A stretch of DNA of 64,000 nucleotides from Methanoplanus sp. FWC-SCC4 (lineage in GTDB: Archaea > Halobacteriota > Methanomicrobia > Methanomicrobiales > Methanomicrobiaceae). Under the pieces are notes generated by a model. It was given only the letters and a program-made list of their open reading frames with translations, made no database searches and was not told the DNA's origin. Positions 43,570-62,606 of the stretch are shown one piece after another; position 1 is the stretch's first letter; each line of letters starts with the position of its first letter. The position numbers and the translations under genes are program-made. The stretch covers positions 434,001 to 498,000 of the forward strand of contig NZ_CP043875.1 of the NCBI RefSeq assembly GCF_032878975.1, written 5' to 3'.

Positions 43570-44595
43570 TCATGCAATTGCAAATCTTAAAAGTGCAGCA
43601 ATTCCTCCGAGTGCATCAAGCTGTCTGCCCGGATCAAATTCCGTTGAGAGAACAATCACAGATGCCCGCATATTTTCTGCCTTTTCAAGTATCTCTTCGG
43701 TTTTTCTGTCACGAAGAAGTCTGTCACAGACTAAAATGTGCTCAACCGCACCAAAGTCAACAGCCGATGAAACTTCCGAGAATCCGTATGCGGCATTTCC
43801 ATCGGATGATAATCTTTTTATTAGTTCTTCCATGGCCTCTACTTCACGTCTGAGCTGTATGTCTTCAGTTATTTTGTCAAGCACTCCGAGACCTATTACT
43901 TCCTGTACTGCACCTCTGCCGATACGGCGTGTTTCTGCCGTAATGCATCTTGCTGCAACTTCGGGGTTTTTGGAATTTGCAAAGGCCATAAAGTCATCCT
44001 TAACAAACCCCGGTCCTGCAATAACCACAGGGCCTGTAATATGAAGCATATTATCCAGGATATCAGCGAAAAATGCCTGACGGTTATTTAAGCCTTCACG
44101 TTTTCCTGTGCCGCTTATGATACCGGTTACAAGCTCAGGGCCGTACTGCCGTATCCTGAATATTTCAGCTTCTCCTTCTTCCACTGTGATGATGTGAATC
44201 AGACCTGTTGTGGATGCCTTCACGGCTCTCTCAATTCTTTCAAGATCTGTTTGTCTCCAGTTTTTGACAACCGAGATTTCATGGCCTGCCTCGACATTAA
44301 GAGTATGGTAAAATCCTGTATCCGGGCCGTATTCTATTACCCCTGAAACTCTCAGCCTGTTGGCATTATGGTGGAACTCAACTTTTTCCACTCTGATTCC
44401 CAGTCTTACAGGTTTTTTCTCAGTTTTTTCCGGTCTTGCCTTGTCAGTTGCACTGTCAAGACTTCTGAAAGTCGTTGCATATGAGAGATCTCCATAGGAA
44501 ATCAGATGCTGGAGGTGCCATAAATCATCGATATTTTCAGGAAAAAGTTTAATCTCTCCGAATGATTTTTTCAGATCACCATATTCAGCCTTCAT
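43570..44595 (-). CDS. pelA: Pelota (aPelota/Dom34), stalled-ribosome rescue factor
   Basis: Archaeal pelota is an eRF1-like protein that enters the A site of stalled ribosomes with aEF1A and, with ABCE1, splits the subunits. It is 341 residues from ATG at 44595; the GTG at 44601 lies inside the Shine-Dalgarno. Motifs: the Sm-like N-domain (GDLSYATTFRSLDS, RLGIRVEKVEFHHNANRLRVSG), the central VVIAGPGFVKDDF segment, and AVDFGAVEHILVCDRLLR in the eRF1-like C-domain. There is no GGQ motif, as expected. It is coupled to rqcH: the rqcH stop lies in its GGAGTGA. Confidence 0.95.
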   Translation of the reverse strand: MKAEYGDLKKSFGEIKLFPENIDDLWHLQHLISYGDLSYATTFRSLDSATDKARPEKTEKKPVRLGIRVEKVEFHHNANRLRVSGVIEYGPDTGFYHTLNVEAGHEISVVKNWRQTDLERIERAVKASTTGLIHIITVEEGEAEIFRIRQYGPELVTGIISGTGKREGLNNRQAFFADILDNMLHITGPVVIAGPGFVKDDFMAFANSKNPEVAARCITAETRRIGRGAVQEVIGLGVLDKITEDIQLRREVEAMEELIKRLSSDGNAAYGFSEVSSAVDFGAVEHILVCDRLLRDRKTEEILEKAENMRASVIVLSTEFDPGRQLDALGGIAALLRFAIA

Positions 44596-44597
44596 AT

Positions 44598-46508
44598 TCA
44601 CTCCTCAATAATATCCGATCCGCCCGGCGGTATGAAAGCAGCGATCCCTTCAGTATTAAGGATTTTTTTAAGGCTTTTCTGCTCATCGGCAGGTATTTTT
44701 TCCTTTATGGCTTTTAAGACCTTTTTTGCCGCATCATTTGATTCATATGTGCCCGGTTTTAACTCAACATAGTATTTTGCACGCTTTTTAACGGCAGAAA
44801 CAGGTCCGCCGATAACACCAAGGGAAGGTTCGTACTGAAGGCCTATTGCGACTCCCAGGGGAACATCGCGGAAATATTTTCTCTCTCCCCTTATTACAAA
44901 CGCTCCTCTTGCAACATATTCCCCTGACTCGGCAGTTTTGGATACCTGTTCACGGTTTGCAACATATACATCGCCTTCAAAATGTCCTGCTTTCCATATG
45001 TTTGAATATGATGCGGCAAACTGTGCCACTTCATCCATGCATTCGGTATCTCCCTTTATGATGACGACACTTCCTCCATGGACATCGGCATGTGCAAATC
45101 TGTCGTTCCCTTCAAGGTATTTTTTAACAATTTCTTCATTTGTTCCGGCATCCCTGCCGCCGATAACCAAAACCCCGTCACTTGTGAAAAACCACCTGAA
45201 GCGGTGATACCATTTCGGTTTAAGGAATACAAACTCTTTTTTCTTTTTTGGAGGCTCTTTTTCCACAAATCTTTCCATTGCAGCGAGAGCTCCGGTCTTC
45301 TTCTTTTTGTATTTCTTGATTTCGTTGTAATACCTGTTGGCATTCGATTCAAGACTTTCATGTACATAAATCCTTATGCGGTTTTCATCCAGATTGATAT
45401 CAACCGATGAATCCTGTGGATAAACTCTTAGAATATTCTTTGTTGAAGGACTGTCGCTTTCTTTAAGAATTTTCTCAATATCCTGCCATGAATGGGATTT
45501 GCTTGCTTTGTCAAGGACTTCAATTATATTTGATAAAAGCTGGTAATTTGCATATATTGAGTTAACTTTTTTCTGCAAATCTTCAACTTTGGCGTCAAAA
45601 CCAATAATAGCCTGTTTCTGACGGTTTCTGATGATCTCTGACTTTGAGAGTCCCTGTAATTTATTTCCCTTTGCCGATTTTTTGGACTCTGCAGTTTCTT
45701 TTAAAGCCGGGTAGAATAATTCGAGAGCTTTATTGTAACTTTCAAAATCATTCAATTTCTCTTCATCTGACAGCAGAAACGGCCAGCAGCCGGATTTTGT
45801 GATTACTGCGTTTATTCCTTCTTCCGATTCGTGAATAATTTCATTATAAGCATCTAAAATTACCTTTGGATCTGCTTTATCTGAAGAAATCAGCTTATCA
45901 GAATCAGCCCTTTTACAAATTTCCTCTGCATATTTCCCACCAGTCATAAGGTCGGAAGCAATCGTTCTTACAAGATCTTTTTCTGATGAAGAAAGAATTT
46001 CCCTGAGTTTTTCTTCAGTTAGATCTTTCAGACTCTCTCCGGGGAATACATATAATTCGCCCGGGAAAATTTTACGATCCTTAAATCTGTGATTTTTCAG
46101 GGGATTGATTATAATGTATTCCTCATCACAGAGTACTGCATTACCCTCATCAAAGAGTTCAAAGATTAGATGATACCGTTTTTCAGTTTTGCCGATAGTA
46201 AAGTCGAGAATTCTTTGAAGACCATACTGGCTTATATCCAAAATTCTTCCGCCCGAGAGATATTTTCTTAAAAACATTGAATATCCTGACGGGCTTGGAG
46301 GTGATGGCGGCAGATTTTCAGTGAGGTGGGCGCGCCGTCCACACTCCACAAGAAAACTGAATTTCTGGCGGTCATCTCCATTGAACTTAAAACCGAAAGT
46401 ACTCCCGTTATACTGGTAAACTTTGCCAATCCATAAAGGGAGGCAGGATTTTAGTTCAAAGAGCATTGAGTGTACATCTATGCCGCTCATTCCTGTTTGT
46501 GTTGCCAT
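44598..46508 (-). CDS. rqcH: RqcH (NFACT/NEMF family), ribosome quality control factor
   Basis: Archaeal RqcH binds the 50S subunit carrying an unreleased nascent chain; bacterial RqcH and yeast Rqc2 add C-terminal tails. The start is ATG at 46508 (636 residues, MATQTGMSGIDV). Upstream in-frame codons run into the divergent gene. NFACT-N residues 1-180 include FLRKYLSGGRI. A coiled-coil middle (about 290-440) ends in KKKKTGALAAMERF, and the NFACT-R domain has WYHRFRWFFTSDGVLVIGGRDAGTNE and HADVHGGSVV. At the position of the conserved Asp-Arg pair the sequence is Q98-R99 (QYGLQRI). It is the first gene of the operon with pelota. Confidence 0.93.
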   Translation of the reverse strand: MATQTGMSGIDVHSMLFELKSCLPLWIGKVYQYNGSTFGFKFNGDDRQKFSFLVECGRRAHLTENLPPSPPSPSGYSMFLRKYLSGGRILDISQYGLQRILDFTIGKTEKRYHLIFELFDEGNAVLCDEEYIIINPLKNHRFKDRKIFPGELYVFPGESLKDLTEEKLREILSSSEKDLVRTIASDLMTGGKYAEEICKRADSDKLISSDKADPKVILDAYNEIIHESEEGINAVITKSGCWPFLLSDEEKLNDFESYNKALELFYPALKETAESKKSAKGNKLQGLSKSEIIRNRQKQAIIGFDAKVEDLQKKVNSIYANYQLLSNIIEVLDKASKSHSWQDIEKILKESDSPSTKNILRVYPQDSSVDINLDENRIRIYVHESLESNANRYYNEIKKYKKKKTGALAAMERFVEKEPPKKKKEFVFLKPKWYHRFRWFFTSDGVLVIGGRDAGTNEEIVKKYLEGNDRFAHADVHGGSVVIIKGDTECMDEVAQFAASYSNIWKAGHFEGDVYVANREQVSKTAESGEYVARGAFVIRGERKYFRDVPLGVAIGLQYEPSLGVIGGPVSAVKKRAKYYVELKPGTYESNDAAKKVLKAIKEKIPADEQKSLKKILNTEGIAAFIPPGGSDIIEE

Positions 46509-46515
46509 TATATAC
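46506..46515 (+). promoter_or_regulatory. TATA element overlapping the rqcH start codon
   Basis: TTATATAC at 46508-46515 begins within the antisense of the rqcH ATG and is centred about 51 bases before the EMC6-like ATG, predicting a + strand start near 46537. Only 54 bases separate the two start codons, so the divergent promoters must overlap. Confidence 0.4.
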
Positions 46516-46562
46516 CAAACTACATATTGTCTGAAAACCAAAAAATAACCACTGGTGTCTTG

Positions 46563-46931
46563 ATGAGTGAGGAAAATATTGTTGAAAGCATAGAAGAGAC
46601 AACAAAAGCGGAGGATGTGCAAAAGACTCCTGAAGACAAGATGAAAGGACACCGCGAGCGAATGTTGCGGACAGGTGTTGCCTGCTTCATGGGAATTATT
46701 ACCGGAGTTATATCTTTTATTGTAATAGGAGATCCTACATCAGTAACGGGAGAACCAAAAGGTATACTTGGTGTTCTGCTATTGCTTGCAGGAATTGTGT
46801 TTCAAAAACATGCATTCATTGCCCTTAAAATAGATCTCTCCGGACTTGGAGGAAAAGACTGGTTTTATCAGGGATTTATGGCATTTGCTTTCTGGTTTAT
46901 TTCATGGACAATTCTTCTTTCACTACAATAA
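46563..46931 (+). CDS. EMC6-like small membrane protein
   Basis: A 122-residue protein with three membrane helices: about 48-68 (VACFMGIITGVISFIVIG), 78-100 and 107-122 (FAFWFISWTILLSL). The layout, with RT before helix 1 and FW...W in helix 3, resembles eukaryotic EMC6 and its archaeal relatives, part of a membrane insertase. The cytoplasmic N-terminus (1-47) is acidic then basic. The start MSEENIVE at 46563 has GGTG five bases upstream; an earlier in-frame ATG at 46470 lies in antisense to rqcH and is rejected. ABCE1 follows after 36 bases. Confidence 0.6.
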   Translation: MSEENIVESIEETTKAEDVQKTPEDKMKGHRERMLRTGVACFMGIITGVISFIVIGDPTSVTGEPKGILGVLLLLAGIVFQKHAFIALKIDLSGLGGKDWFYQGFMAFAFWFISWTILLSLQ

Positions 46932-46967
46932 TACTTAACCAATAATTGATTTTTTAAGGATGATTTT

Positions 46968-48743
46968 ATGCGAATAGCAGTAGTTCATAAAAACAGATGC
47001 CATTCCAAAAAATGCGGTAAAGAATGTATATTATACTGCCCGCGTGTAAGAACCGGTGATGAAACAATTGTTATCGGTGAGAACGGAAAAGCGGTAATTT
47101 CAGAGGAGCTTTGTGTGGGTTGTGGTATTTGTGTCAAAAAATGCCCGTTTGAGGCTCTGGATATAATCACTCTCCCCCAGGAACTGGACTATCCCACCCA
47201 CAGGTATGGTCAGAATGGTTTTGCACTCTATGGAATAGCGATACCACTTGAAGGAAAAGTAACAGGTATTCTTGGTGCAAACGGTATCGGTAAAAGTACG
47301 GCGGTCGGAATATTATCAGGCCAGCTGATACCTAATCTTGGAAATATTGAGGAAGAGCCCACGTGGGAAGGGATATTAAAGGAATACACCGGAACCGAGC
47401 TTTATGATTATCTGAATATGGTTGCCGGAGGCAATGTAAAAGTTGCTGTCAAACCCCAGTATATCGATCACATCCCAAAGGTATTCAAGGGAAAGGTAAG
47501 GGATCTCCTATCTTCAGCAGATGAAAGAGGCGTCCTTGAGAGCTATGCGGCAGAACTTAAGCTTGAAGCAATACTTGACAGGGAAATTGGAAAAATATCC
47601 GGTGGAGAACTTCAGCGCATTGCACTGGCCGCCTGCCTTTCACGTAATGCGGATTTTTATTTCCTTGATGAAATTACTCCTTACCTTGATATATATCAGA
47701 GAATGGCAGCTGCAAAACTTATCCGCGAGGTTGCAGAAGAAAAACCTGTCATGATTGTAGAGCACGACCTTGCGATACTTGATATGCTTGCAGATAATGT
47801 TCATGTTGCATACGGAAAGCCCTCGGTTTTTGGTATAATCACAAGGCCAAAAGGTGTCAGAGTTGGTATAAACCAGTATCTTGAAGGTTTCCTTCCTGAA
47901 GAGAATGTTCGTTTCAGGGATTATTCGGTAACCTTTGAAACAAGAGCTCATACGCGTGATTCCGACAGACAGACTCTGTTTGAATTCCCTGCAATGAGTA
48001 AAAGCTATGATGGCAAATTTACATTGAATGTCAGAGGCGGGGATATCAAAGCCGGAGAAGTTCTCGGACTTGTTGGTGCAAACGGTATTGGAAAGAGTAC
48101 TTTTGCAAAACTTCTTGCAGGTGCCGAAAAACCTGACAATGGGGAGCTTGAGACAACACTAAAGGTTGCATATAAGCCCCAGTATATTAAATCCGACTCA
48201 TCCGATACGGTTGAATTTCTTTTAAGAAGAACAACAAGCAGGTTTGACACTTCCTATTACCAGCATGAGATAATCGAGCCCCTGTCCCTTGATACGATCA
48301 TGCAGTCACAGGTTGATCATCTCTCCGGTGGAGAGCTTCAAAGGGTTGCAATAGCACTTTGTCTTTCCCAGAGTGCAGACCTGTATATTCTGGATGAACC
48401 AAGCGCACACCTTGATGTCGAACAGCGTGTGAAACTAGCCCGTGTATTAAGGCGGCATGCGGAAGGTAGTGAGTCGGGTGTTTTGGTAATTGACCATGAT
48501 ATCTATCTAATAGACATGATAAGTGAGCGTCTTTTTGTATTTGACGGGCAGCCCGGCGTATCCGGAGAGGCTGTCGGGCCTTTTGACATGAAAGACGGCA
48601 TGAACTATTTCCTCAAGGAACTGGAAGTTACTTTCCGCAGAGATAAGAGCGGAAGACCCAGAATAAACAAACCCGGAAGCTATTTGGATCGTGAGCAGCG
48701 TTCCATTGGCGAATACTATTATGCTGATATTAGCAAAACATAA
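46968..48743 (+). CDS. abce1: ABCE1/Rli1 ribosome-recycling ATPase
   Basis: Twin-ATPase iron-sulfur protein that splits ribosomes after termination or pelota binding. Length is 591 residues. Two [4Fe-4S] clusters lie at 1-75 (NRCHSKKCGKEC, YCPRV; CVGCGICVKKCPFEAL). NBD1 has GANGIGKST and ISGGELQRIALA; NBD2 has GANGIGKST and LSGGELQRVAIAL. Walker B of NBD1 reads FYFLDEITPYLD (Ile after Glu where Pro is usual); NBD2 has ILDEPSAHLD. The hinge and C-terminal motif are present. It forms a transcription unit with the EMC6-like gene and diverges from rqcH-pelota, whose products act with it. Confidence 0.97.
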   Translation: MRIAVVHKNRCHSKKCGKECILYCPRVRTGDETIVIGENGKAVISEELCVGCGICVKKCPFEALDIITLPQELDYPTHRYGQNGFALYGIAIPLEGKVTGILGANGIGKSTAVGILSGQLIPNLGNIEEEPTWEGILKEYTGTELYDYLNMVAGGNVKVAVKPQYIDHIPKVFKGKVRDLLSSADERGVLESYAAELKLEAILDREIGKISGGELQRIALAACLSRNADFYFLDEITPYLDIYQRMAAAKLIREVAEEKPVMIVEHDLAILDMLADNVHVAYGKPSVFGIITRPKGVRVGINQYLEGFLPEENVRFRDYSVTFETRAHTRDSDRQTLFEFPAMSKSYDGKFTLNVRGGDIKAGEVLGLVGANGIGKSTFAKLLAGAEKPDNGELETTLKVAYKPQYIKSDSSDTVEFLLRRTTSRFDTSYYQHEIIEPLSLDTIMQSQVDHLSGGELQRVAIALCLSQSADLYILDEPSAHLDVEQRVKLARVLRRHAEGSESGVLVIDHDIYLIDMISERLFVFDGQPGVSGEAVGPFDMKDGMNYFLKELEVTFRRDKSGRPRINKPGSYLDREQRSIGEYYYADISKT

Positions 48744-48801: not shown

Positions 48802-49998
48802 ATGCCAAGAGGGGAAAAATTAACTGATGCAATAAGATACGAAAAGGTGGATGGGCTTAAAAACGATCTTTTTGCTTATATTGACAACAGTCCGGATAAA
48901 ATCTCTGCAAATCTGCCTGTTTTTTTTGGCCATGTGATGTCTGCTCTTGATCATGCTTTCCCCGATATTGACAATAATGCCTATGATGAATTTATTGATG
49001 CTATTGCATACAGGCTGATGGTTTCCAGCAAGGATGCAAATAAGGTTGATTTCGTTGAAAATATTATAAAAAACGCTCTTCGCTGTAAAAGGAAAAAATC
49101 AGGAAGATCGACTCTCCGAATTCTATCCGGCATAAAGATGATGGAGATTGGAAGGTACAGGGAAGCAATTGGATATTTTGGTGAATACTGGAAATATGAT
49201 GCAAGAATCGGGATCTATATTGCCTACTGTAATTACTGTATGTCGGAGATAGAAGGAAAAAGAAACGGAAGTTCCGTTTCTGGCGGGGCTCCTTCACGAT
49301 TTGAGCTTCAGGCGAGAGAATCGCTTCTTGAACTTGCAAGAGTCCAGCCCCCCGTTGCAAGATTAAAACAGCTTGATATGAAGGACAATGAAGTGATGGA
49401 ACGTGCCTTTTGGGTAATAATCCGTAAATCACTTGAATGGTTCCCCACAGAGCGCTGGTTCCTGAAAATCGGCATTCAGAAAGCTAAAAATGATAATAAT
49501 GATGAGAGAAGAGCCCAGCTTTTGAGTTATGCAATTGATAAATATTACAATGACCAGGACTTTCTCAGAGAAAATTTCTACCTGAAACTTGAGAAGCGTG
49601 ACGGGGTGGGTGCTTCAGGTGTTGTAAAGCAGATGATACAACAAAACCCGGACAGTCTTGAACCTTTATACTATGGAATTAAATTATCCTTACTCTCAAA
49701 CAGTAAAGGGCTGTACAATGAATACCGTGATACTGCGCTTGATAAAGGGATGCCCCATTATCTTATTCAGCTGTTTGATCTTGCCCTTTTTATCATGAGG
49801 GATGAAAAGCATGAAGCAGAATTGCAGTTAAAACATCTGAAAAAGAGATTTAAATCTTTGAGTTTTTACTTAATTACAATTGATTATCTGATTAAGGACA
49901 TATTTTCAGAAGAAAACGGGCGGAAAAAAGTTTCAAAAAATGCTTTTTTTGAATCACTGGATCGCTATGCGGTTCAGGTTATAAAAATTCAGGAATAA
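48802..49998 (+). CDS. Uncharacterised helical-repeat protein
   Basis: A 398-residue protein I do not recognise. It appears all helical, with TPR-like spacing in GIKMMEIGRYREAIGYFGEYW (about 115-135) and later segments such as SLEPLYYGIKLSLLSN. No signal peptide, membrane helix or catalytic motif is visible. A low-complexity loop (GKRNGSSVSGGAPS) lies near 155. AGGTGA is the ribosome binding site. It follows abce1 across a short gap with T-runs. A scaffold role is possible; the function is unknown. Confidence 0.6.
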   Translation: MPRGEKLTDAIRYEKVDGLKNDLFAYIDNSPDKISANLPVFFGHVMSALDHAFPDIDNNAYDEFIDAIAYRLMVSSKDANKVDFVENIIKNALRCKRKKSGRSTLRILSGIKMMEIGRYREAIGYFGEYWKYDARIGIYIAYCNYCMSEIEGKRNGSSVSGGAPSRFELQARESLLELARVQPPVARLKQLDMKDNEVMERAFWVIIRKSLEWFPTERWFLKIGIQKAKNDNNDERRAQLLSYAIDKYYNDQDFLRENFYLKLEKRDGVGASGVVKQMIQQNPDSLEPLYYGIKLSLLSNSKGLYNEYRDTALDKGMPHYLIQLFDLALFIMRDEKHEAELQLKHLKKRFKSLSFYLITIDYLIKDIFSEENGRKKVSKNAFFESLDRYAVQVIKIQE

Positions 49999-50106: not shown

Positions 50107-51150
50107 TTAAAAATTCAAACTGTCAAAATATTGAAATTCTATTGATACGAGTGGCTCGAATTCTTTTTCATAATAATAGCCTGTAAGAATTTTATTTACA
50201 AACCACCATCTGCCGTCAGCATCCACGAATACTTTTTTTATATTATTTTCTTTTAGATCTTTTCTGGAGAGGTGTTTTAAGATAATTCCTTCTTTCCATG
50301 CATATAGGCCGTAATTGGTTCCTATAATATATTTCCCGTCTTTTGTGGAATATACATCATTGATATTGTGCACATCCTCTGAGAGGTCTGTAACATTTAA
50401 TATATTCACAGCACCTGAAATTTCATTATAATGCACTATATCAGTCTCATTAAAGAAATACACGCCGCCTGAAGGATCTGAACGTACATTTTGCATATCT
50501 TTTGATATTTTATGGGATATTATTTCATCAAAACCTGGATTGTCTGATGTAACATTCAGGATATATTGTCCTTCATTATCAGATGCAAGGACAAGAGCAC
50601 CTGTTGAATAGTCAACCGCCATTGAAACAATGCGGTTTGCTCCGGGACTTTTATCGGTATAAGGCTGAAACCACTTCCATTCGCCTTTAGAGTAACAGTA
50701 AACACCACTGTTGCCTGTTGCAACCCACATTTCATCAGAACGTGCCTGAAGGTCATTTATGGAATAGATGATTAATGTCCTTTCAGGATATCTCATGGTG
50801 CGTGGTTTTGTATATCCGTCATAAATCTGTATACCGTCCGAATATCCCAGCCACAAATTGCCGTAAATGTCATATTCTGCATCAAGAACATAGTCATTCA
50901 GGGGGATTCCTTCAAGATAACCCCTCCTGTCCCTGGCTTTGGAATGTAAAATTTCCCAGTTTCCATCGTTGAAAATGGATATACCGTTGGTAGTCGCGAA
51001 AACAAGACTTTCTCCCGGAGCATTGGTAATGTCTTTAATATCACTGGTTCCGATTGAATCCTCACCCGGCCAGTATAAAATGACTTCTCCTGAAACGGGG
51101 ACTATTGTCAGGATTAAAAGAGTAAGTAATAATATTAAATATCTATGCAT
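50107..51150 (-). CDS. Exported beta-propeller protein at the end of the chemotaxis operon
   Basis: A 347-residue protein with a signal peptide (residues 1-21, LILLLTLLILTIVPVSG). The rest is repeats of the two-component-regulator-propeller type: YDIYGNLWLGYSDGIQIYDG, SDEMWVATGNSGVYCYSKGEW and TKDGKYIIGTNYGLYAWKEG, about six or seven blades. There is no membrane anchor or kinase domain. It lies outside the cytoplasm, yet its ATG is inside cheD (16-base overlap), so it is the last gene of the arl-che transcript. It may sense a ligand or contact the archaellum base or a chemoreceptor; this is inference from position. Confidence 0.75.
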   Translation of the reverse strand: MHRYLILLLTLLILTIVPVSGEVILYWPGEDSIGTSDIKDITNAPGESLVFATTNGISIFNDGNWEILHSKARDRRGYLEGIPLNDYVLDAEYDIYGNLWLGYSDGIQIYDGYTKPRTMRYPERTLIIYSINDLQARSDEMWVATGNSGVYCYSKGEWKWFQPYTDKSPGANRIVSMAVDYSTGALVLASDNEGQYILNVTSDNPGFDEIISHKISKDMQNVRSDPSGGVYFFNETDIVHYNEISGAVNILNVTDLSEDVHNINDVYSTKDGKYIIGTNYGLYAWKEGIILKHLSRKDLKENNIKKVFVDADGRWWFVNKILTGYYYEKEFEPLVSIEFQYFDSLNF

Positions 51151-51623
51151 GTTCCATCTGCTCTTCTGACCGAGATAATGCCTTTTTTTGCAGGATCGTA
51201 AGTGATGGAGCGTCCAACATTTCCGCCTACATCTTCTGCAACAAGGGGAATGCGGTATTCTTCAAGAGCTTTTTTAATTGCCTCAACATTCCGTCCTCCA
51301 ATATCGAGATTGCCCTTGAACTGCTTAAACATACTTGATCCCCCTGCAATTTTTGCAGTTATATCTCTTTTATTGCTCCCCTGCTTTAACAGTTCGGCAT
51401 AAAGTGTAGGTATTGCAGTATCTGCAAATTTACCTGGTCTTTCTTTTTTTCCGTTACTCTCAGGAAGCATGATATGCGCAACTGCCCCCATGGAATGTTT
51501 ATTGTCGTGAAGTATCAGAGCAACACATGAACCCAGACCTATTGATGTCATCAGGGACTGACCAATGTGGTATTCCCCAATACCTACATTGACTCCTTTT
51601 GTTGCCGGGGGCTTGTCTGTCAT
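51135..51623 (-). CDS. cheD: Chemoreceptor glutamine deamidase CheD
   Basis: Deamidates glutamines on chemoreceptors and binds CheC and CheF in archaea. Length is 162 residues. The catalytic C33 is in SIGLGSCVALILHD and H50 in GAVAHIMLP. Ribosome binding is weak, suggesting dependence on coupling within the operon. It follows cheC by 18 bases and overlaps the propeller gene by 16 bases. Confidence 0.95.
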   Translation of the reverse strand: MTDKPPATKGVNVGIGEYHIGQSLMTSIGLGSCVALILHDNKHSMGAVAHIMLPESNGKKERPGKFADTAIPTLYAELLKQGSNKRDITAKIAGGSSMFKQFKGNLDIGGRNVEAIKKALEEYRIPLVAEDVGGNVGRSITYDPAKKGIISVRRADGTCIDI

Positions 51624-51641
51624 TTTTTCAACCAGGGTAAA

Positions 51642-52256
51642 TTACTGTGGTGATTTTACAAGGTCTTCCAGGATTTTTAAAATCTGTTCAAGTGTTCCTT
51701 CATCAGGAAGCATAACAATTGTGCTTTCGATGTCATGCATTTTTGATTTGAGCTCTGTTCTGAACAGTATAATCTGGTTTATATCGACTGCAACCATCGA
51801 AACAACATTTGCAAAAGCTGCATGTGCCATATCTATTGCTATTGCCGGAGGTGACGGAAGCATTACAATTCCGAGCAGTGTTGCTGTTGCATCAAGGAAT
51901 TGTGAGACCATAATATTTCCAACCTCTAACAGGGCACTTTCATCCATTTCATTGAACTCCCTGTCCATATCTGTTGAACCAAGCATGGTATTTGTAAGTC
52001 TGATTGCGGACTTTTTTGGAAGATGCAGTACTACATATCCTCCGGGATGGAGTTCTCCCTGGATTTCAAAGACCACCAAAGCAGAGATTTCATCGCCAAA
52101 ATATTCGGAAATATCTGCAATGTCGACAATTCGTGCTTCCGGGACTGTCATCTCTATTTCAGACATCAGCATTGTTGAAAGGGACGTTGCCGCATGTGAT
52201 GCACCGATATTTCCAAGCTCTTTCATCGCATCAAGCTGAGTTTCATTTAATTCCAT
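51642..52256 (-). CDS. cheC: CheY-P phosphatase CheC
   Basis: CheC-family phosphatase of CheY-P, 204 residues, also a CheD partner. The first active-site motif is in ELNETQLDAMKELGNIGASHAA; the second in NEMDESALLEVGNIMVSQF, each with the E-x3-N core. GAGGAT is the ribosome binding site. Gene order cheA-cheC-cheD matches other methanogens. Confidence 0.94.
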   Translation of the reverse strand: MELNETQLDAMKELGNIGASHAATSLSTMLMSEIEMTVPEARIVDIADISEYFGDEISALVVFEIQGELHPGGYVVLHLPKKSAIRLTNTMLGSTDMDREFNEMDESALLEVGNIMVSQFLDATATLLGIVMLPSPPAIAIDMAHAAFANVVSMVAVDINQIILFRTELKSKMHDIESTIVMLPDEGTLEQILKILEDLVKSPQ

Positions 52257-52280
52257 TTTTATAATCCTCTTAATTTAAGG

Positions 52281-54608
52281 TTAAATTATCATTGTGTTTA
52301 CATCCAGAATCGGCAGTACATCGCCATCTCCCGGTATTGTTACTCCTCCGACACCAGGACAGTTGCCGATAATGTTACTGACCGGTTTTACAACAACTTC
52401 CTGCTGTCCTTCTACCACATCAACAGGTATGCAGCATTTTGTTCTTTGGTACTGGACTATCACTACAATGCCGCTTTCTTTTGCAGGGCCGAACATTTCA
52501 TCCAGGCGGTTTATCTGAACTACCTCATCCCTTAGAAGAATTGCTTCCGTTTTACCGATGTGACTTATTTCATTTAAGTCAACTTTTGCAACTTCAACAA
52601 CCGCGTTAATTGGGATTGCACATCTCTTGTTGTTAATCCTGACCATCATCACTTCAATAATGGCCATTGTCGGTGGAAGTGTAAGTGTGAATTTACTGCC
52701 TTTTCCCTCTTCTGAATCTACTTTTATTGAACCTTTAAGAGATTCTATGGCACTTTTAACGACATCCAGACCTACTCCCCTTCCACTGATATCTGTGATC
52801 TCTTCAGCAGTTGAGAAACCGGGCTGAAAGAGGAAATTCGGGACATCCTCATCAGGAACGGCTGATGCTTCTTCGGCAGATATAAGTCCTCTTTCAATTG
52901 CTTTTTTAAGAACCTTGTCGCGTTTTATTCCTGCACCGTCATCTGAAAGTTCAATTATTACATTGCCCTGATCACGCCAGGCTGAAAGTTTTACCGTTCC
53001 TTTTCCGCTCTTTCCTGCTGCGACTCTCTCTGCAGGTGTTTCTATACCATGATTTACGCCGTTTCTGATAAGGTGAAGCAGAGGATCTCCGAGACCGTCT
53101 ATAACACTTCTGTCAAGTTCGGTCTCGCCACCTGTCATTATAAATTCGACCTCTTTTCCATCATGATGTGCAACATCTCTTACAACACGTGGGAAGCGGT
53201 TGAAGATCTGGTTTAAAGGAATCATTCTGATATACATCATCAGGTTTTGAAGATCTGATATCGAGCGGCTGACCATGTTTAAGGCTTCATCCATATCCTT
53301 AATCTGGTGTTCCTTTGAGATCTGTTTGAGGCGGCCGCCGTTTATTACAAGATCTTCAACGAGATTCATCATCTGATCCAGTCTGTGTATATCAACCCGT
53401 ATATTTTTAACTTCACGTTTTTTAGATGAAGATTTGGGTCTTTCCTTTTTTTCTGTTTCATGATCACGGGTTTCTGTCCTCTCATCGTGGATTTCTTCTT
53501 TTAAAAGAACCTGTTCTTTCGATTCTTTTGTCTCAGAAATTAAGCTGTAATCTGAAACGGTTGCTTTTAAAATGTCAGGTCCTGTAACAGCTTTTAATAA
53601 GTTCTCTTCTGATTCTGACCCTGAAAAGATGATTTCAAGTTTGTCTTCAATTTTACCTTCATCAATCTGTTCAAATGTTGGACTGGATGATATTATATTA
53701 CCCCTGCTTTCAAGATTCTGAAGAATAATCATTGCCCTGATATCCTTCATCGTACATTCAGGTGAAAATTCAATATTTATTGTATATGCAGGAGTTGTTG
53801 AGGTGACATCATTTCCTTCTTTTGTAATTTCTATTTCTGAGATATCGGTTACAGAAGCCGCACTTTTTAATGCCTCTTCACCTGCATCACTTTCAATTTC
53901 AACAGTCAGGGTGTCATCAATTATTCCCTGATCAAGCTCATCCATTGTAGGGGTGCTTTTGATAATCTGTCCAATATCCTCGAGATTTTGGAGGACGATC
54001 ATTGCCCTAACATCTTTCATACCGCAGTCTTTTGCAAGAGTGACTTTTAAGCGGTATTTCTGGATTTGCGTGATTAATGGAACTTCAGTCAAAATATTTT
54101 CCTTGTCCTCCGTACTCACCTGAATATCGGAATCATAAGTTTCCTTGTTATTGATGATATCAGACCCGGATTCGCCTGTCAGGTTACTTATTTCGGTTAC
54201 AGTGGACTCTTTATGAGTATCTTCAATGCTGCTTTCAATTTTTTTGAGTTCCTCAATCAGATCTTTTGAGCCTATTGATGAACTGTCTCCCCCGTTTTCA
54301 ATATCCTCAATCATTTCTTCTATCCTGTCAGTGCAGGCTAAAAGCAGGTCTGTGAGGTTGGGAGAAATTTCTATTTCACCGCTTCTGATTGTATGAAATA
54401 TATCTTCCATCTTGTGGCAAAGGTGCTCCATTTCGGAATAACCCATCGAGGCTGACATACCCTTAAGTGTATGGGCCGAGCGAAAGATTTCGTCAATAGC
54501 AGCATCGTCAGAACCTTCTTCAAGAATGAGAATATTTTTTACAATGTTCTCGTGGTTTTCAATAGATTCTGCAACAAAGAGTTTTCTGTATGAATCCTCG
54601 TCTGACAT
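52281..54608 (-). CDS. cheA: Chemotaxis histidine kinase CheA with duplicated P2 domain
   Basis: CheA autophosphorylates and passes phosphate to CheY and CheB. It is 775 residues from ATG at 54608; the GTG at 54620 lies in the GGAGTGA ribosome binding site that also holds the cheB stop. P1 has H46 (FRSAHTLKG). Two P2-like CheY-docking domains follow (about 180-258 and 269-347), sharing MKDVRAMIVLQNLE against MKDIRAMIILQNLE. P3 has DQMMNLVEDLV. P4 has the N box HLIRNGVNHG, G1 DDGAGI and G2 GRGVGLDVVKS. The C-terminal P5 is CheW-like. Confidence 0.95.
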   Translation of the reverse strand: MSDEDSYRKLFVAESIENHENIVKNILILEEGSDDAAIDEIFRSAHTLKGMSASMGYSEMEHLCHKMEDIFHTIRSGEIEISPNLTDLLLACTDRIEEMIEDIENGGDSSSIGSKDLIEELKKIESSIEDTHKESTVTEISNLTGESGSDIINNKETYDSDIQVSTEDKENILTEVPLITQIQKYRLKVTLAKDCGMKDVRAMIVLQNLEDIGQIIKSTPTMDELDQGIIDDTLTVEIESDAGEEALKSAASVTDISEIEITKEGNDVTSTTPAYTINIEFSPECTMKDIRAMIILQNLESRGNIISSSPTFEQIDEGKIEDKLEIIFSGSESEENLLKAVTGPDILKATVSDYSLISETKESKEQVLLKEEIHDERTETRDHETEKKERPKSSSKKREVKNIRVDIHRLDQMMNLVEDLVINGGRLKQISKEHQIKDMDEALNMVSRSISDLQNLMMYIRMIPLNQIFNRFPRVVRDVAHHDGKEVEFIMTGGETELDRSVIDGLGDPLLHLIRNGVNHGIETPAERVAAGKSGKGTVKLSAWRDQGNVIIELSDDGAGIKRDKVLKKAIERGLISAEEASAVPDEDVPNFLFQPGFSTAEEITDISGRGVGLDVVKSAIESLKGSIKVDSEEGKGSKFTLTLPPTMAIIEVMMVRINNKRCAIPINAVVEVAKVDLNEISHIGKTEAILLRDEVVQINRLDEMFGPAKESGIVVIVQYQRTKCCIPVDVVEGQQEVVVKPVSNIIGNCPGVGGVTIPGDGDVLPILDVNTMII

Positions 54609-54616
54609 TTTGATTA

Positions 54617-55639
54617 TCACTCCATATTGGAAATTGTTCTCATGATATCCCGGGGAATGGACTTTAACGGCAGTACTTTATCAACACAGTCTCTTTCAAG
54701 TGCTGAGCGTGCCATGCCATAGACCAGGCAATCTTCTTCTCTCACTAAAATAGTTCTGCCGCCGCTTTCCTTTATTGCGGCCATGCCTTCTCCGCCATCG
54801 CTGCCCATTCCGCTTAATATTGCAGCGACAGTATTTGGTCCGAATACTTTTGATGCGGACTGAAATGTTTTGTCAACTGCAGGTCGTACAGCATGCACAG
54901 GAGGTGCCTTGGAGTGCGTTATTCTTCCTCCTTTCCTTCCGGAATTATCAAGGGTTGCAGAAATAACTGTATGGAATCCTCCTTTTGAAACATAGATCCT
55001 GCCATTTTGCAGGAGATCGCCGTTTGCTGTCTCTTTTACTTCAAGCGGGGAGATCCTGTCCAGTCTTTGAGCAAGTGATGCGGTAAAACCTGCCGGCATA
55101 TGTTGTGTAATTACAACTGCGGCATTTAGATCCGGTTTTAATGCTGATACAATAATATCAAGCATAGGAGGGCCTCCTGCAGATGAACCAATTAATACAA
55201 CCCTTTTTGCAGGAATTTCTTCAACTGTTACTTTATTAGAGACCTTCGGGATTGTAATGAGATGTTTTATCTTTGTAATAAGTTCTTTTTCGATACCCCT
55301 GACAGTACCAAGGTTTCTTGGTTTTAGCATGAAGTCATCTGCACCAAGTTCAAGACCTTTTTTTGTTAGTTCAGCATCTTTTGAAGTAAGGGTGCTGAGC
55401 ATAAGGATCTTTGGTGGATCTTCAGATGACTGAAGCTTTTCAAGCATTTCGATGCCGTTCATTTTAGGCATCTGGATGTCAAGGGTAATTACATCCGGAG
55501 ATAATTCTTCTATCTTCTTTAATGCCTGAAGACCATCTTCCGCTGTTCCAACGACCTCTATTGAAGGGTCTTTACCAAGAAGATCAATGAGTACCGTACG
55601 CATGAATACGGAGTCATCAACAATCAGAACTCTGATCAT
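54617..55639 (-). CDS. cheB: Protein-glutamate methylesterase CheB
   Basis: Phosphorylation-activated receptor methylesterase and deamidase, 340 residues. The REC domain has D8/D9, phospho-acceptor D54 (TLDIQMPKMNG) and K106. The esterase domain has the triad S153 (IGSSAGGPP), H180 (ITQHMPAGF) and D281 (SGMGSDGGEG). Its start lies four bases after the cheY stop; its stop is embedded in the cheA ribosome binding site. The matching methyltransferase CheR is not in view. Confidence 0.96.
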   Translation of the reverse strand: MIRVLIVDDSVFMRTVLIDLLGKDPSIEVVGTAEDGLQALKKIEELSPDVITLDIQMPKMNGIEMLEKLQSSEDPPKILMLSTLTSKDAELTKKGLELGADDFMLKPRNLGTVRGIEKELITKIKHLITIPKVSNKVTVEEIPAKRVVLIGSSAGGPPMLDIIVSALKPDLNAAVVITQHMPAGFTASLAQRLDRISPLEVKETANGDLLQNGRIYVSKGGFHTVISATLDNSGRKGGRITHSKAPPVHAVRPAVDKTFQSASKVFGPNTVAAILSGMGSDGGEGMAAIKESGGRTILVREEDCLVYGMARSALERDCVDKVLPLKSIPRDIMRTISNME

Positions 55640-55643
55640 CTTT

Positions 55644-56006
55644 TCAGGAGTTTAGAACATTATTTACTTCTTCAAGAACTTTAGGTGCCTGGAACGGTTT
55701 TACTATGTATCCTTTGGCTCCTGTCTTGATTGCCAGTTTAACCATCTGTTCCTGTCCCACAGCTGTGCACATGACAACCTTTGCATTGGGATCTTCAGTC
55801 ATAATAGCCTTCAATGCTTCGATACCGTTCATTTTAGGCATTACAACGTCCATTGTAACAAGGTCGGGTTTAAGCGCCTTGTACTTCGTAACGGCGTCTT
55901 CACCGTCTTCTGCTTCACCAACAATGTCATGAGAGCCGGAAAATAAAATATTTTTCAGAAGTGTTCTCATGAACATTGTATCGTCAACAACAAGAATCCG
56001 TCCCAT
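55644..56006 (-). CDS. cheY: Chemotaxis response regulator CheY
   Basis: A 120-residue receiver with D8/D9, phospho-acceptor D53 (TMDVVMPKMNG), T81 and K103 (YIVKPF). In archaea CheY-P acts through CheF on the ArlC/D/E platform of the motor. A 148-base gap precedes it after cheF and may contain a separate promoter. Confidence 0.95.
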   Translation of the reverse strand: MGRILVVDDTMFMRTLLKNILFSGSHDIVGEAEDGEDAVTKYKALKPDLVTMDVVMPKMNGIEALKAIMTEDPNAKVVMCTAVGQEQMVKLAIKTGAKGYIVKPFQAPKVLEEVNNVLNS

Positions 56007-56035
56007 TGTGAATCAGTAATATTTCTTAAATTAAT

Positions 56036-56057
56036 CATATTAAGACTATCGAATAGT
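56036..56057 (-). promoter_or_regulatory. Possible internal promoter and palindrome before cheY
   Basis: In the cheF-cheY gap a TATA-like TTAATATG (minus strand, near 56036-56043) would start transcription close to the cheY ATG. A perfect palindrome ACTAT-CGA-ATAGT lies just upstream at 56045-56057, where an archaeal activator could bind. This may let che genes be expressed separately from the arl genes. Confidence 0.35.
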
Positions 56058-56154
56058 TTAGCGAAATAAATAGACCCCTTTTTAAACTGGCGTTAAAATA
56101 TGAAAAATATGTATAAATTTTAAGAAAATAATGTGTTTTAATCTGTTCCTGTTT

Positions 56155-56949
56155 TCAGGTTTTTACCGCTTCACTTACAAAGCGCACCCCTTTGGTTGTA
56201 AGTTTTACTTCACGTCTTGTCATTACAACTTCCACAAGGCCGGTTTTAATCAGCTTATCATATATGGATTCAATTTGCTTGTTTGAGATATTTATCATAT
56301 TTTCTATTGCATGTGTATCCATTCCGCTGTAAACAAGCATTGCAACCTGTGCAGAAACGGGATCTAGCTCTCCCGCTGATACATCAAGATCCTTTGTCGT
56401 GTCTTTTAGATAATTGAATAGTATCTGCAGGGTTGTTAGAGGACAGAGAACAAAACTTGTGACAACCTCATCATTTTCAATGTGGTTAATCTGGACAACA
56501 TCGCTTTCTTTACCCTGTACTTCCCTTTTTGTCAGATCTATTCCGGAAACTTCATCAAGAGGAATACAGATCTGTTTTTCTTTGCTTACAAACCATATTC
56601 CGGTATTTAGTACTGCAATTGCTCCTTTTTCCCATTTTGCAGAACTTATCATTACTCCGCCTCTGATAGCCGGAGACATAAAATATGCGGTTAATCTGTA
56701 TGCGGAACAACCCATCAGGATAATTCTTTTTAAAATTAGCAGAACCTTTGGAACTGATGCAAGTTTGAAATTTTTATTATTTTTTGTACTTATTATAAGC
56801 ATGTTCTTTTTTTCTTCGATATCGTCAATGGACTTTATTTTTATTTCTTCTGATATTGGTTCGGGAATAATTATTTTGTCCTCTTCAAAGCCAATTTTTA
56901 GCGACATCCATTTTCCATTATGTTCTAATTTTACCGGAACCTGTTTCAT
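56155..56949 (-). CDS. cheF: Taxis adaptor CheF (DUF439)
   Basis: Archaea-specific adaptor linking CheY-P, CheC and CheD to the archaellum motor. It is 264 residues from ATG at 56949, with GGAGGAT 9-11 bases upstream; a TTG at 56970 would extend it without a ribosome binding site. The central AYFMSPAIRGGVMISSAKWEKGAIAV segment and a C-terminal winged-helix-like end (VYSGMDTHAIENMINISNKQIESIYDKLIKTGLV) fit the family. It lies between arl and che genes. Confidence 0.85.
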   Translation of the reverse strand: MKQVPVKLEHNGKWMSLKIGFEEDKIIIPEPISEEIKIKSIDDIEEKKNMLIISTKNNKNFKLASVPKVLLILKRIILMGCSAYRLTAYFMSPAIRGGVMISSAKWEKGAIAVLNTGIWFVSKEKQICIPLDEVSGIDLTKREVQGKESDVVQINHIENDEVVTSFVLCPLTTLQILFNYLKDTTKDLDVSAGELDPVSAQVAMLVYSGMDTHAIENMINISNKQIESIYDKLIKTGLVEVVMTRREVKLTTKGVRFVSEAVKT

Positions 56950-56989
56950 ATCAAATATATCCTCCAACAAATAACAAATTAATATATAA

Positions 56990-58342
56990 TTATGATTCTT
57001 CCTCAGTTATCTCTTCTTCTTTTTTTGTTATCTCTATTCCGAATTCTTTCATGATTTCTTCAAGTTCCCCTATAAGTTCTGTACTATCTATTTTGGTATC
57101 TTTCAGATTACGGACAAGGCTTACTTCCTGTATAGCTACAGCCTTTTTAGTATCCGATTTTAGCATTGCAAAGAGATCATCTTCATCATTCCCCCCTCCA
57201 AACGCCATTGATACCGGTTCGTCAAAATTACTTTCTGCCTCCTCTTTTCCTAATACTCCGCTAAGAGAGCTTTTCTGCTCCCATTCTTTTGGCGGTGCTG
57301 ATAATATGTCTTCTTCATCAGTTGGAGCTAATGCAGGCACTTCTTCTATTTCTGAATCAGAGTCTCCTATTTCAATTTCTTCAAATGAATCATCATCATC
57401 ACCAATTTCAATCTCATCTTCGGTTTCGATTTCATCAAGATCGATTTCATCAAGCTCTCCCAAATCATCATCTTCAAAATCAAAACCTGAGATATTACTA
57501 TCTAAATCATCTATATTTTCCAGACCGGAATCAGGAATTTCGCTGTCTTCGTCATTAGTATTGTCAATTGATGCCGGGAAATCACTATCATCCAATTCAA
57601 GTTCAATTCCCTCTTTTGCAAGTATATCGGCAATTGCAGAATCCGGGATCTCTTCTTCCAGAGCTGCTCCCGGGAAATCCTCTGCGCTTTTTGGAATTGT
57701 TATGTCTCCCTCTTCCTCTTCAGAATCAAGTCCAAGATCAAAATTATCAAAATCTGAAAAGTCATCATCGGATGAATTATCTTCAGAATTATTTTCATCA
57801 GAGGCATTTGATACGCCTTCTCCTGAGAGGGCCTGATCAAGCAATGTATCAATTTCCTTTATTTTTTCTTCTGATTTACCAGATTTAGGTATTTTGCTTT
57901 TTAGTGAAGAAAAGCCTGCGAATAAAGATTTTTTTGTGGTTTCGGAATCTTTTTTGGTAATTTTTTCTGCTTTTTCTTCTTTCTTTTTTGAAAATATTCC
58001 TTTTAATGAGTCTAAAAGGCCGGGTTTACTTCCCTCTTTCGTTTTAGAATCTGCTTTAAAAGTTTCAGATTCAGGTTTTTTCTCACCTTTTGATTTATTT
58101 TGTGTTTTATCTGTTTTTTTGAGGCTTATTGGCTGATCAAGCTTATTTTTTAGATTAGACAGATCCGACTTGATTTCATCCAATGTAATCATCTGTAATG
58201 CAAACAGCATCACGACTCCGATGGCAACTGCAATAAATAATACAATAATTGGACTTAATTCCAGGAATGTTACAGCTGAACCTGCTAAAATGATGGTTAG
58301 CATCATTAGAAGTCTTCTTTTGGAATCACTCATCTTTGTCAT
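56990..58342 (-). CDS. Membrane-anchored, highly acidic low-complexity protein in the archaellum operon
   Basis: Unrecognised protein of about 450 residues. Two membrane helices near the N-terminus (about 8-27 and 29-50) lead into a Lys-rich coiled region (about 55-160), then a long Asp/Glu/Ser-rich disordered segment (about 175-350). A conserved-looking C-terminal patch follows (VAIQEVSLVRNLKDTKIDSTELIGELEEIMKEF). The start ATG at 58342 has GAGG nine bases upstream; a TTG at 58357 within arlJ is less likely. It sits between arlJ and cheF and may tether motor and signalling parts at the membrane or help polar placement (inference). Confidence 0.65.
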   Translation of the reverse strand: MTKMSDSKRRLLMMLTIILAGSAVTFLELSPIIVLFIAVAIGVVMLFALQMITLDEIKSDLSNLKNKLDQPISLKKTDKTQNKSKGEKKPESETFKADSKTKEGSKPGLLDSLKGIFSKKKEEKAEKITKKDSETTKKSLFAGFSSLKSKIPKSGKSEEKIKEIDTLLDQALSGEGVSNASDENNSEDNSSDDDFSDFDNFDLGLDSEEEEGDITIPKSAEDFPGAALEEEIPDSAIADILAKEGIELELDDSDFPASIDNTNDEDSEIPDSGLENIDDLDSNISGFDFEDDDLGELDEIDLDEIETEDEIEIGDDDDSFEEIEIGDSDSEIEEVPALAPTDEEDILSAPPKEWEQKSSLSGVLGKEEAESNFDEPVSMAFGGGNDEDDLFAMLKSDTKKAVAIQEVSLVRNLKDTKIDSTELIGELEEIMKEFGIEITKKEEEITEEES

Positions 58343-58343
58343 G

Positions 58344-59942
58344 TTATAGTGCCTCAAATCCCGGAATGGAGAACATTAGATCTACAAATACAGGAGTTGT
58401 AATATATATTATTCCGGTCAACCCAAATAAAATACTACCAAAGAAATAAAACATATAGCGATCTCCTCCTTTCACAATTTTACCTGCAAGTATATTCGCA
58501 ACAGTCACAATTAGTATACTGATTACCAGAAACATCTGCATTTTATCTTCAGGGAAATTGGCAAAAATGTTTATTGAGCCAACCATTGATCCCCCTATTG
58601 ATGTGGAACTGGAACTCAGTGCGGATGCAGTATCCGAAAAAGTGGTCATGACACTTTTAATTGCACCCGCCATAGTCAGAAGAATATGGAACAGGAAACA
58701 AAAAATTCCAATCATGGCCATATGCATTGGTATCAAAAGTACTATGAAACCTGTTGAGAGCATTTCTCTTTTTTGTCTTAGGAGAGTCTGTTCAAGCATT
58801 GAGGTACTTACAATGTGTGCCACCTCAGCAGGCCCTGCTCCGAGTTCAACTGAATCCCTGAAAATACCCAGATATTTGTAAATCAGGTTACTGCCGGTAT
58901 CCCTTATGAATTTGTTCCATACAAGTCCCTCATCAAGACCTATATTCATCTTTGAATAAACTGAATCTATAAAGTTCTGAAGGACAACAAGAGATTTACG
59001 ATCTACTTTTGCCAGTGCGGGAGTGACTGTCATTCCCATTCCTCCCATAATTGAGCCAAGACCCCTTATGAAGACCGTAAAATCCTCATCTCTTGCAATA
59101 ATGTTTTTATCATCACGGTATCCAAAAATTCCCAGGGGTGCAAGAAGAATTCCTGAAAGAATGCATATAAGACCAAAATTAATTCCTGATATAAACAGAA
59201 TGAGACTTACCAGCACTGTAACAGGTACGATAAATCTTTCCATTTTTCTTACCATATTCTGTTCATAACTTCCGCTACCACTGAGATTGTGGCATTTCTG
59301 ATCATCAGGAATTGATTTGTACATGGTAATTATGCCAAACGCTGAAACTCCTATTGTTAGAAAATATGATGAATTCAGGGTAGATTCGAGATCGTCAGGA
59401 GCATAAATTGCAACTGATACCATGATAATAATACTTACAATGGTTGCAGAAAGCATCAGGGCGATATATGCATCACCCCACTTTTTTAGCATTTCAACTC
59501 CCTGCTCAAATGTATTTCTGAAGATGTTTCTTACAGTTCCCAGTTCCTCATTTAGAAAGATATTATCCGGGACACCTGATTCTATTGAGTTTCCAAAACG
59601 GTTCAAAAGACTTTCGACAAGAGGATTTCTTGCTCTTTCTGCGACAACTCTCAGGCCTTCCGCATAGCTGTAATTCCATCTTTTAACAAAGCATTCGACT
59701 CTTTTAATGTATCTTGCAGGGATGTATTCTTTTCTCTCAGAGGTGTATGCAAAAATTTCAGGTCTTGATACATTGGCGTTTGTAATGGATGCCATGTATG
59801 TTATCATAAACAGGAGATCGTTTCCCATTTTTTTATTATCACGAATGTCCGATATTTTATTGCGGAGCTCAGCAATATTGTCCTCAAACGGAAGTTTACC
59901 TCCGTTTTTCTCCCTGATGTTTTTTAGCTGAGTATCGAACAT
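58344..59942 (-). CDS. arlJ: Archaellum platform protein ArlJ (FlaJ)
   Basis: Polytopic membrane core of the archaellum motor, related to PilC/GspF. Length is 532 residues with about 7-9 membrane helices and two cytoplasmic GspF-like domains. Motifs: RVVAERARNPLVESLLNRFGNSIESG, DFTVFIRGLGSIMGGMGMTVTPAL, and GIFRDSVELGAGPAEVAHIVS. It follows arlI by 15 bases. ArlI drives its conformational changes for assembly and rotation. Confidence 0.95.
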   Translation of the reverse strand: MFDTQLKNIREKNGGKLPFEDNIAELRNKISDIRDNKKMGNDLLFMITYMASITNANVSRPEIFAYTSERKEYIPARYIKRVECFVKRWNYSYAEGLRVVAERARNPLVESLLNRFGNSIESGVPDNIFLNEELGTVRNIFRNTFEQGVEMLKKWGDAYIALMLSATIVSIIIMVSVAIYAPDDLESTLNSSYFLTIGVSAFGIITMYKSIPDDQKCHNLSGSGSYEQNMVRKMERFIVPVTVLVSLILFISGINFGLICILSGILLAPLGIFGYRDDKNIIARDEDFTVFIRGLGSIMGGMGMTVTPALAKVDRKSLVVLQNFIDSVYSKMNIGLDEGLVWNKFIRDTGSNLIYKYLGIFRDSVELGAGPAEVAHIVSTSMLEQTLLRQKREMLSTGFIVLLIPMHMAMIGIFCFLFHILLTMAGAIKSVMTTFSDTASALSSSSTSIGGSMVGSINIFANFPEDKMQMFLVISILIVTVANILAGKIVKGGDRYMFYFFGSILFGLTGIIYITTPVFVDLMFSIPGFEAL

Positions 59943-59957
59943 AAAAGATATTTCCGC

Positions 59958-61820: not shown

Positions 61821-61834
61821 GGTTTATTCTCCTT

Positions 61835-62584
61835 TTATACTCTTGCAGTTGACATTGGAATAATCTTCATACCGTAACCAGGATGTACTTCAAAAGAAAC
61901 GACATTTCCTGTTGTTTTTCTGGCACCTCTGACTTTAATAACTTCCATTACCATTACATATTTGTCGCCGATAAGAGCTTTTTTCATGAATAAATGTGCA
62001 TCACAAATTGATCTGATTCTGACAAGTGTATCTTCCTCAAATGCATATGTGTGGAGTGTAATCAGTATTGTTTTACCATGATCAACAAGGTTTTTGCAGT
62101 TTGTCAGGAATGCCAGCAGATCACTCTGAGATGTTGATTCGGTCAGGAGTGTCAGTGAATCAATGATTATTACTTCAGATTTGCTTGTCTGTATTTTTCC
62201 GATAATTCTTTTTAAAATACCGTTCATTTCTTCTTCACCCCATTCAAAACCAATTGTGTGCATGGGGTATATTTTCAGATATCCCCATGCAAAATAATCA
62301 GAAATATCCAGACTCATTGAATCCATCTGTGAAAGAAAACTTTTTGCAGTGTTTTCTGAAGTATAGAGATCCACGTTCATGCTGCCTTTCATCGCACCCC
62401 AGATGATCTGCTGGGTCATTACACTTTTTCCTGTATCATTTTCTCCTTCAATAAGAGTTAATGATTCAAGTGGAAGTCCGTCTGCGAGTTTTTTATCAAT
62501 TTCCGGATTTCCGGTTGAGAGGATGTGTCTGTCATCTCCCCCTAACAGATCACCAAGACCGGGACTTTCTTCATCTTCAAACAT
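61835..62584 (-). CDS. arlH: Archaellum RecA-like ATP-binding protein ArlH (FlaH)
   Basis: KaiC/RecA-like ATP-binding protein that forms a ring with ArlX or ArlC/D/E and regulates ArlI. Length is 249 residues. Walker A GENDTGKS at 47-54, and a Walker B-like VIIIDSLTLL. The catalytic glutamate after Walker B is not obvious, in line with ArlH binding more than hydrolysing ATP. GAGGT ribosome binding site. Confidence 0.95.
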   Translation of the reverse strand: MFEDEESPGLGDLLGGDDRHILSTGNPEIDKKLADGLPLESLTLIEGENDTGKSVMTQQIIWGAMKGSMNVDLYTSENTAKSFLSQMDSMSLDISDYFAWGYLKIYPMHTIGFEWGEEEMNGILKRIIGKIQTSKSEVIIIDSLTLLTESTSQSDLLAFLTNCKNLVDHGKTILITLHTYAFEEDTLVRIRSICDAHLFMKKALIGDKYVMVMEVIKVRGARKTTGNVVSFEVHPGYGMKIIPMSTARV

Positions 62585-62606
62585 ATTTTTACCTCATTAA
62601 TTTTTT

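Follow-up and report, generated by a model that had tools for sequence, protein, structure and literature searches.

The window, i.e., the whole 64,000-nucleotide stretch of DNA analysed here, contains four neighbouring genes for pelota, RqcH, an EMC6-like membrane protein and ABCE1, and their arrangement goes beyond chance: clusters of these genes recur across the whole order to which the window belongs and extend to several further families of its phylum. This old, widespread cluster has as its conserved units two separate pairs, rqcH–pelA and emc6–abce1, with the divergent junction between them as a third, more fragile link. The more surprising result, and an unexpected one, is an order-wide change in the "DR" motif of RqcH; a sequence-only reading of the window had assumed a standard RqcH, but as judged from the alignment, the order's RqcH is non-standard at this tRNA-recognition motif. 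Neither the cluster nor the DR change turned up in earlier reports within the literature searched, which mostly lay outside subscription papers.

Pelota acts on stalled ribosomes by occupying their empty A site, ABCE1 splits the subunits, and RqcH then holds the 50S subunit with its peptidyl-tRNA. ABCE1 also works in ordinary recycling and in initiation. Ribosome rescue in archaea is poorly studied, and the conserved cluster both names players and offers one short promoter for testing.

Organization of the gene cluster

Positions 43570–48743 are filled by four intact, full-length genes in two divergent pairs (Table 1), with a gap of exactly 54 bp between the ATG of rqcH (46508) and that of emc6 (46563), which confirms the two-and-two layout described by the sequence-only reading. 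The gene identities proposed there hold as well, all four products scoring far above the curated cut-offs of their own families. Matches in the PDB are Pyrococcus and yeast ABCE1 for the window ABCE1, and human NEMF (E 3e-52), yeast Rqc2 and B. subtilis RqcH for the window RqcH. Each pair looks like an operon, because the rqcH stop overlaps GTG 44601, the first possible pelA start, and because a gap of only 36 bp, with a ribosome-binding-like GGATGA ahead of abce1, separates emc6 from abce1. The likelier start of pelA is ATG 44595, in view of the GAGGAG preceding it, rather than GTG 44601. An RqcH reading frame of 684 residues beginning at GTG 46652 was dismissed as merely a mechanical extension, because the alignment of homologues begins at ATG 46508 or at an MSG start further downstream.

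Table 1 Features of the pelA–rqcH–emc6–abce1 region (window coordinates)
Feature	Position	Strand	Evidence
pelA (pelota/Dom34), stalled-ribosome recognition	43570..44601	-	TIGR00111 289.6 bits vs cut-off 177.65; PF03463 and PF03465
rqcH (NEMF/Rqc2 family)	44598..46508	-	NF041120 683 bits vs 400; NFACT_N (PF05833), NFACT-R_1 (PF05670)
Altered DR motif of RqcH, Gln98-Arg99, codons CAA AGA	46212..46217	-	Alignment of 74 RqcH and three references
Predicted bidirectional promoter spacer, 54 bp	46509..46562		Alignment of 36 order sequences; identity above third codon positions
EMC6-like membrane protein (archaeal EMC6 family)	46563..46931	+	PF19094 101 bits vs 26.7; three predicted transmembrane helices
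abce1 (RLI), ribosome-splitting ATPase	46968..48743	+	NF009945 910 bits vs 469; Fer4_RLI, Fer4, two ABC domains

The pelota score of the window protein also exceeds its aRF1 score (56, with an aRF1 cut-off of 234.7). The central domain gives no match to Pfam eRF1_2; the TIGR00111 match spans residues 9–342, and the PGF motif is present. Throughout the order, pelota has lost many positions that are invariant elsewhere in the phylum, e.g., E35, D118, Q119 and R238.

On the 3' side of abce1, positions 48802–49998 encode a 398-residue, all-helical protein that is TPR-like by a low-confidence model and has no significant Pfam family. Among the families surveyed below, this gene follows abce1 only in f1, f2 and one f5 genome. 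It sits between the cluster and an adjoining set of chemotaxis (CheD, CheC, CheA, CheB, CheY, CheF-like) and archaellum genes on the minus strand (51135–63923), of which CheF was confirmed by Pfam and the others were named by eye.

A conserved spacer at the divergent junction

The 54-bp spacer is conserved, unique in the genome and predicted from its sequence to act as a bidirectional promoter. Across 36 order sequences, a set of blocks (TATACCAA, TAC.ATAT.G, AC.AAAAAA.TA and ACTGGTG) is kept in fixed order, with the pattern TATACCAA..TAC.ATAT.G followed by AC.AAAAAA.TA...ACTGGTG. Within the window's family, spacer identity to the window is 72–96% compared with 34–56% at third codon positions (taken at identical abce1 residues), and for most other families of the order the values are 50–71% and 32–42%, respectively; f4, G032 and G158, whose junctions are inverted, interrupted or diverged, fall outside this pattern. 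Each motif half occurs once at full match in the genome, which argues for a locus-specific promoter. A regulon motif was ruled out, as there is no second good genomic copy and the remaining matches are at control level, and a search of the spacer for a structured DNA element found none (z 0.88).

The shared divergent promoter region of the sequence-only reading thus reappears as a conserved, single-copy spacer. Its further proposal, coordinated dosing of the whole pathway, is a fair inference with this conserved promoter behind it, but the four genes can do without co-control, because Methanosarcina-like, Haloarchaea-like and other lineages no longer have the junction. Nor does the dosing of ABCE1 need to follow rescue, given its additional duties in ordinary recycling and initiation.

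Linkage inside and outside the order

The survey comprised 80 EMC6-centred stretches from 24 families (f1–f24), with 24 loci from the window's order and 56 from elsewhere in the phylum. When named loci were included in an ABCE1 tree, those of Methanocorpusculum, Methanoregulaceae and a further Methanomicrobiales genome fell inside f1–f6, which identifies the window's order as Methanomicrobiales; Methanosarcina groups with f8, an ANME-1 genome (Methanophagales) lies within f10, and a Haloarculaceae genome groups with f13/f17/f20/f22. From tree position, our guess is that f9 represents Archaeoglobi and f15 Methanonatronarchaeia. The ABCE1 frame at L205 (G148, f24) is interrupted by a single TGA and sits on a long branch.

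EMC6 (PF19094) is present in 39 of 40 relatives and in 137 of 138 phylum genomes, nearly always as a single copy. The emc6 and abce1 genes are adjacent and co-directional at all 24 order loci, and at 36/56 loci (14 of 18 families) outside the order. Within the order, rqcH adjoins emc6 in all families, except for f4, where pelA lies in between, and G032, where a few kb are inserted; the rqcH–pelA half is inverted yet still adjacent in f4, and all four genes are co-oriented. Outside the order, rqcH adjoins emc6 at nine loci from five families (f7, f11, f15, f16 and f19), seven of these loci also having pelA, and pelA joins rqcH–emc6–abce1 in f11, f15, f16 and f19 (in f16 with one gene between rqcH and pelA). 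The gene-neighbourhood survey proposed by the sequence-only reading thus finds linkage in distant genomes, not limited to close relatives.

Elsewhere the cluster is looser. Genome-wide searches place rqcH and pelA as neighbours far from emc6–abce1 in f8, f13, f14 and part of f12, and as close or loose neighbours, likewise far from emc6–abce1, in f17, f20 and f22; each pair is kept in Methanosarcina-like and Haloarchaea-like genomes, though the cluster as a whole has come apart. Linkage is absent in ANME-1-like f10 and also in f18, f23 and f24, and emc6–abce1 is patchy in f9. Parsimony on a concatenated tree, with hand-coded states and small gaps counted as adjacent, requires few changes: six for emc6–abce1, five for rqcH–pelA and four for the junction. 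Within 8 kb of ABCE1, EMC6, RqcH and pelota were all absent from the Asgard, Bathyarchaeota, Thermoprotei, Nitrososphaerales, Woesearchaeota and Thermoplasmatota loci, some of which are on short contigs.

Several release factor relatives were met in the survey. The "pelota" matches beside EMC6 in f10, and near EMC6 in f17 and f22, are really aRF1, and the lone weak match near ABCE1 in the Thermoplasmatota locus L116 is an aRF1 relative. This relative (L116:5306–6394) is similar to newly named ribosome hibernation factors and is located about 1.6 kb upstream of abce1. In a Haloarchaea-like f13 genome, a diverged protein of the aRF1 superfamily directly follows abce1 (L077:10878–12092); it falls below the aRF1 cut-off and shows weak similarity to acVLRF1, and may be a further release factor encoded next to the splitting ATPase.

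The EMC6-like protein, its gene neighbours and its predicted partner

By its profile score and its three long modelled helices (residues 23–55, 66–87 and 97–121; mean pLDDT 76.7), the window protein is a member of the archaeal EMC6-like family. For homology to eukaryotic EMC6 we depend on the published HHpred result (PMC8675477), because the top fold match of the window protein, yeast EMC6, is not significant (E 2.6, TM about 0.3), and a sequence search of the PDB gave no EMC6 match. The same paper describes a predicted heterodimer of the archaeal EMC6-like protein with YidC in M. jannaschii (MJ0606/MJ0480), YidC being a ribosome-linked insertase. A YidC-type gene (PF01956) is present in the window genome, 111 kb from emc6.

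The conserved partner of emc6 is abce1, not rqcH. Because the two pairs outlive the divergent junction, EMC6 is tied to abce1, and elsewhere to thrS or aRF1 neighbourhoods, and not to the rescue genes as such. In f9 (L055–L061, L063), emc6 lies directly downstream of a thrS-like gene encoding 615–627 residues (named by eye), with abce1 next in some genomes. In ANME-1-like f10 (L064, L066, L068, L069 and L071), emc6 is found within a few genes of aRF1, and in most of these loci Csl4-like and RpoL-like genes (named by eye) are in between. These two settings suggest a tie to translation generally more than to stalling. In a study of conserved archaeal membrane proteins (Makarova 2015, PMC5898192), EMC6, RLI and pelota are not mentioned, and no publication joining ABCE1, EMC6 and archaea was found in the literature searched. 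The stable emc6–abce1 pair provides a lead on a possible connection between membrane insertion and ribosome recycling in archaea.

An order-wide change in the DR motif of RqcH

As for domain composition, the window RqcH has both NFACT-N and NFACT-R and exceeds its equivalog cut-off, whereas the DR motif for tRNA selection and tailing is replaced by QR (the coordinates in Table 1 take 46508 as the start and were confirmed on the sequence). On this evidence, homology to RqcH/NEMF/Rqc2 is not in doubt, but canonical tailing activity is. The DR motif of bacterial NFACT-N contacts the tRNA anticodon, and in B. subtilis the D97A/R98A variant loses its specificity for tRNA-Ala, while a comparable variant of yeast Rqc2 binds the large subunit and does not support CAT tailing (PMC8373112). 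The motif altered by evolution across a methanogen order is the one mutated in the laboratory to turn tailing off, and the order-wide change amounts to a natural experiment that asks if quality control can do without tailing.

Among 25 full-length RqcH sequences from the order, the Asp position is occupied by Gln in 13 and by Glu in 12; 17 further order genomes agree, giving Gln or Glu in 42 of 42. Asp is found in all 49 RqcH from other families of the phylum, and in those of B. subtilis, yeast and human. In the alignment of 74 RqcH and the three references, this Asp is the one residue that never varies among the references and the RqcH of other families yet is replaced order-wide. Parsimony on the tree places the replacement as a single event on the stem of the order, after which Glu and Gln have switched at least five times with no other residue accepted, a pattern that makes the site look re-tuned rather than decayed. 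The substitution suggests that C-terminal tailing by the order's RqcH is altered or lost, although Glu may make the same anticodon contact as Asp, in which case the change could be mild. A tentative but bolder possibility is that ribosome quality control in Methanomicrobiales has been naturally re-tuned, and that RqcH, expressed from a bidirectional promoter that also serves the splitting factor and an insertase partner, would operate without canonical alanine tailing and either only cap the 50S–peptidyl-tRNA complex or recruit a different tRNA.

Proposed function and alternative explanations

We favour, with moderate confidence, an old rescue and recycling cluster in which two operons on one compact bidirectional promoter would keep the factors in proportion, EMC6 would be co-expressed as a partner of the YidC-type insertase, and the order's RqcH would have changed its tRNA selection. 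The single promoter would hold pelota, RqcH and ABCE1 in proportion, an important balance since harm would follow from splitting without capture or from capture without splitting. Co-expression of EMC6 with ABCE1 would reflect a need for this insertase partner that rises with translation, and not an action of EMC6 on stalled chains. The order's RqcH would still bind the 50S–peptidyl-tRNA complex, while with Gln or Glu in place of Asp, the usual tRNA selection would be gone and tailing either lost or carried out with another tRNA.

That the linkage merely reflects descent among close relatives, or chance, is hardly credible. Complete four-gene clusters are indeed densest in the window's own order, but they recur outside it in f11, f15, f16 and f19, with f15 far off in the tree, and the baseline neighbours of the window have decayed: its FKBP, CYTH, phosphoesterase, TPR-like, ORF347 and che genes are near EMC6 at 0/56 loci outside the order, and its two radical-SAM genes give one and two matches among the 56. 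The same decay of other neighbours weighs against a plain housekeeping neighbourhood, where highly expressed translation genes share promoters and operons without any pathway meaning and EMC6 merely belongs to a translation-linked operon. This explanation, which we consider rather unlikely, gains from the position of emc6 directly behind the thrS-like gene in f9 and a few genes from Csl4–RpoL–aRF1 in f10, and from the persistence of the pairs without the junction, each half with its own conserved order. However, three of the four genes act at consecutive steps of one process, and in f4 even the inverted half remains adjacent.

A more specific role for EMC6, in the quality control of stalled membrane-protein synthesis, passing 50S-trapped chains between RqcH/ABCE1 and the insertase, appears improbable. 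Such a role would fit with emc6 being kept close to abce1 and, in several lineages, close to rqcH, as it would with the predicted partnership of the archaeal EMC6-like protein with YidC (PMC8675477). Yet when the cluster splits, EMC6 stays with abce1 and not with rqcH–pelA; it is near-universal even where unlinked, YidC is encoded at a distance of 111 kb in the window genome, and no domain or motif ties EMC6 to stalled ribosomes.

Comparison with known systems

Inference from gene context has been applied to Dom34/aRF1 relatives (PMC6514570), and our approach is similar; the portion of that study consulted mentions neither the rqcH–pelA–emc6–abce1 cluster nor the rqcH–pelA pair. With the archaeal EMC6-like/YidC system (MJ0606/MJ0480), the window shares a member of the archaeal EMC6 family and a YidC-type PF01956 gene in the genome. 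There, the consulted portion of PMC8675477 places EMC6-like genes outside the ribosomal-protein/SecY/YidC cluster and does not mention linkage to abce1 or rqcH.

Bacterial ribosome quality control, as exemplified by alanine tailing through RqcH–RqcP in B. subtilis, has in common with the window an RqcH homologue with NFACT-N, NFACT-R and the Arg of the DR motif. The equivalent of Asp97 is however Gln or Glu order-wide, and the splitting factors in the window are pelota and ABCE1. The tailing partner in archaea and eukaryotes has been called yet to be discovered (PMC8373112). The likeness to eukaryotic no-go decay and ribosome quality control (Pelota/Dom34–Hbs1, ABCE1/Rli1, NEMF/Rqc2 and Listerin) lies in the full-length Pelota, ABCE1 and NEMF-family proteins encoded in the window. 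Unlike that system, the window has its genes clustered on one predicted bidirectional promoter, and an RqcH in which the Asp of the DR motif has been replaced.
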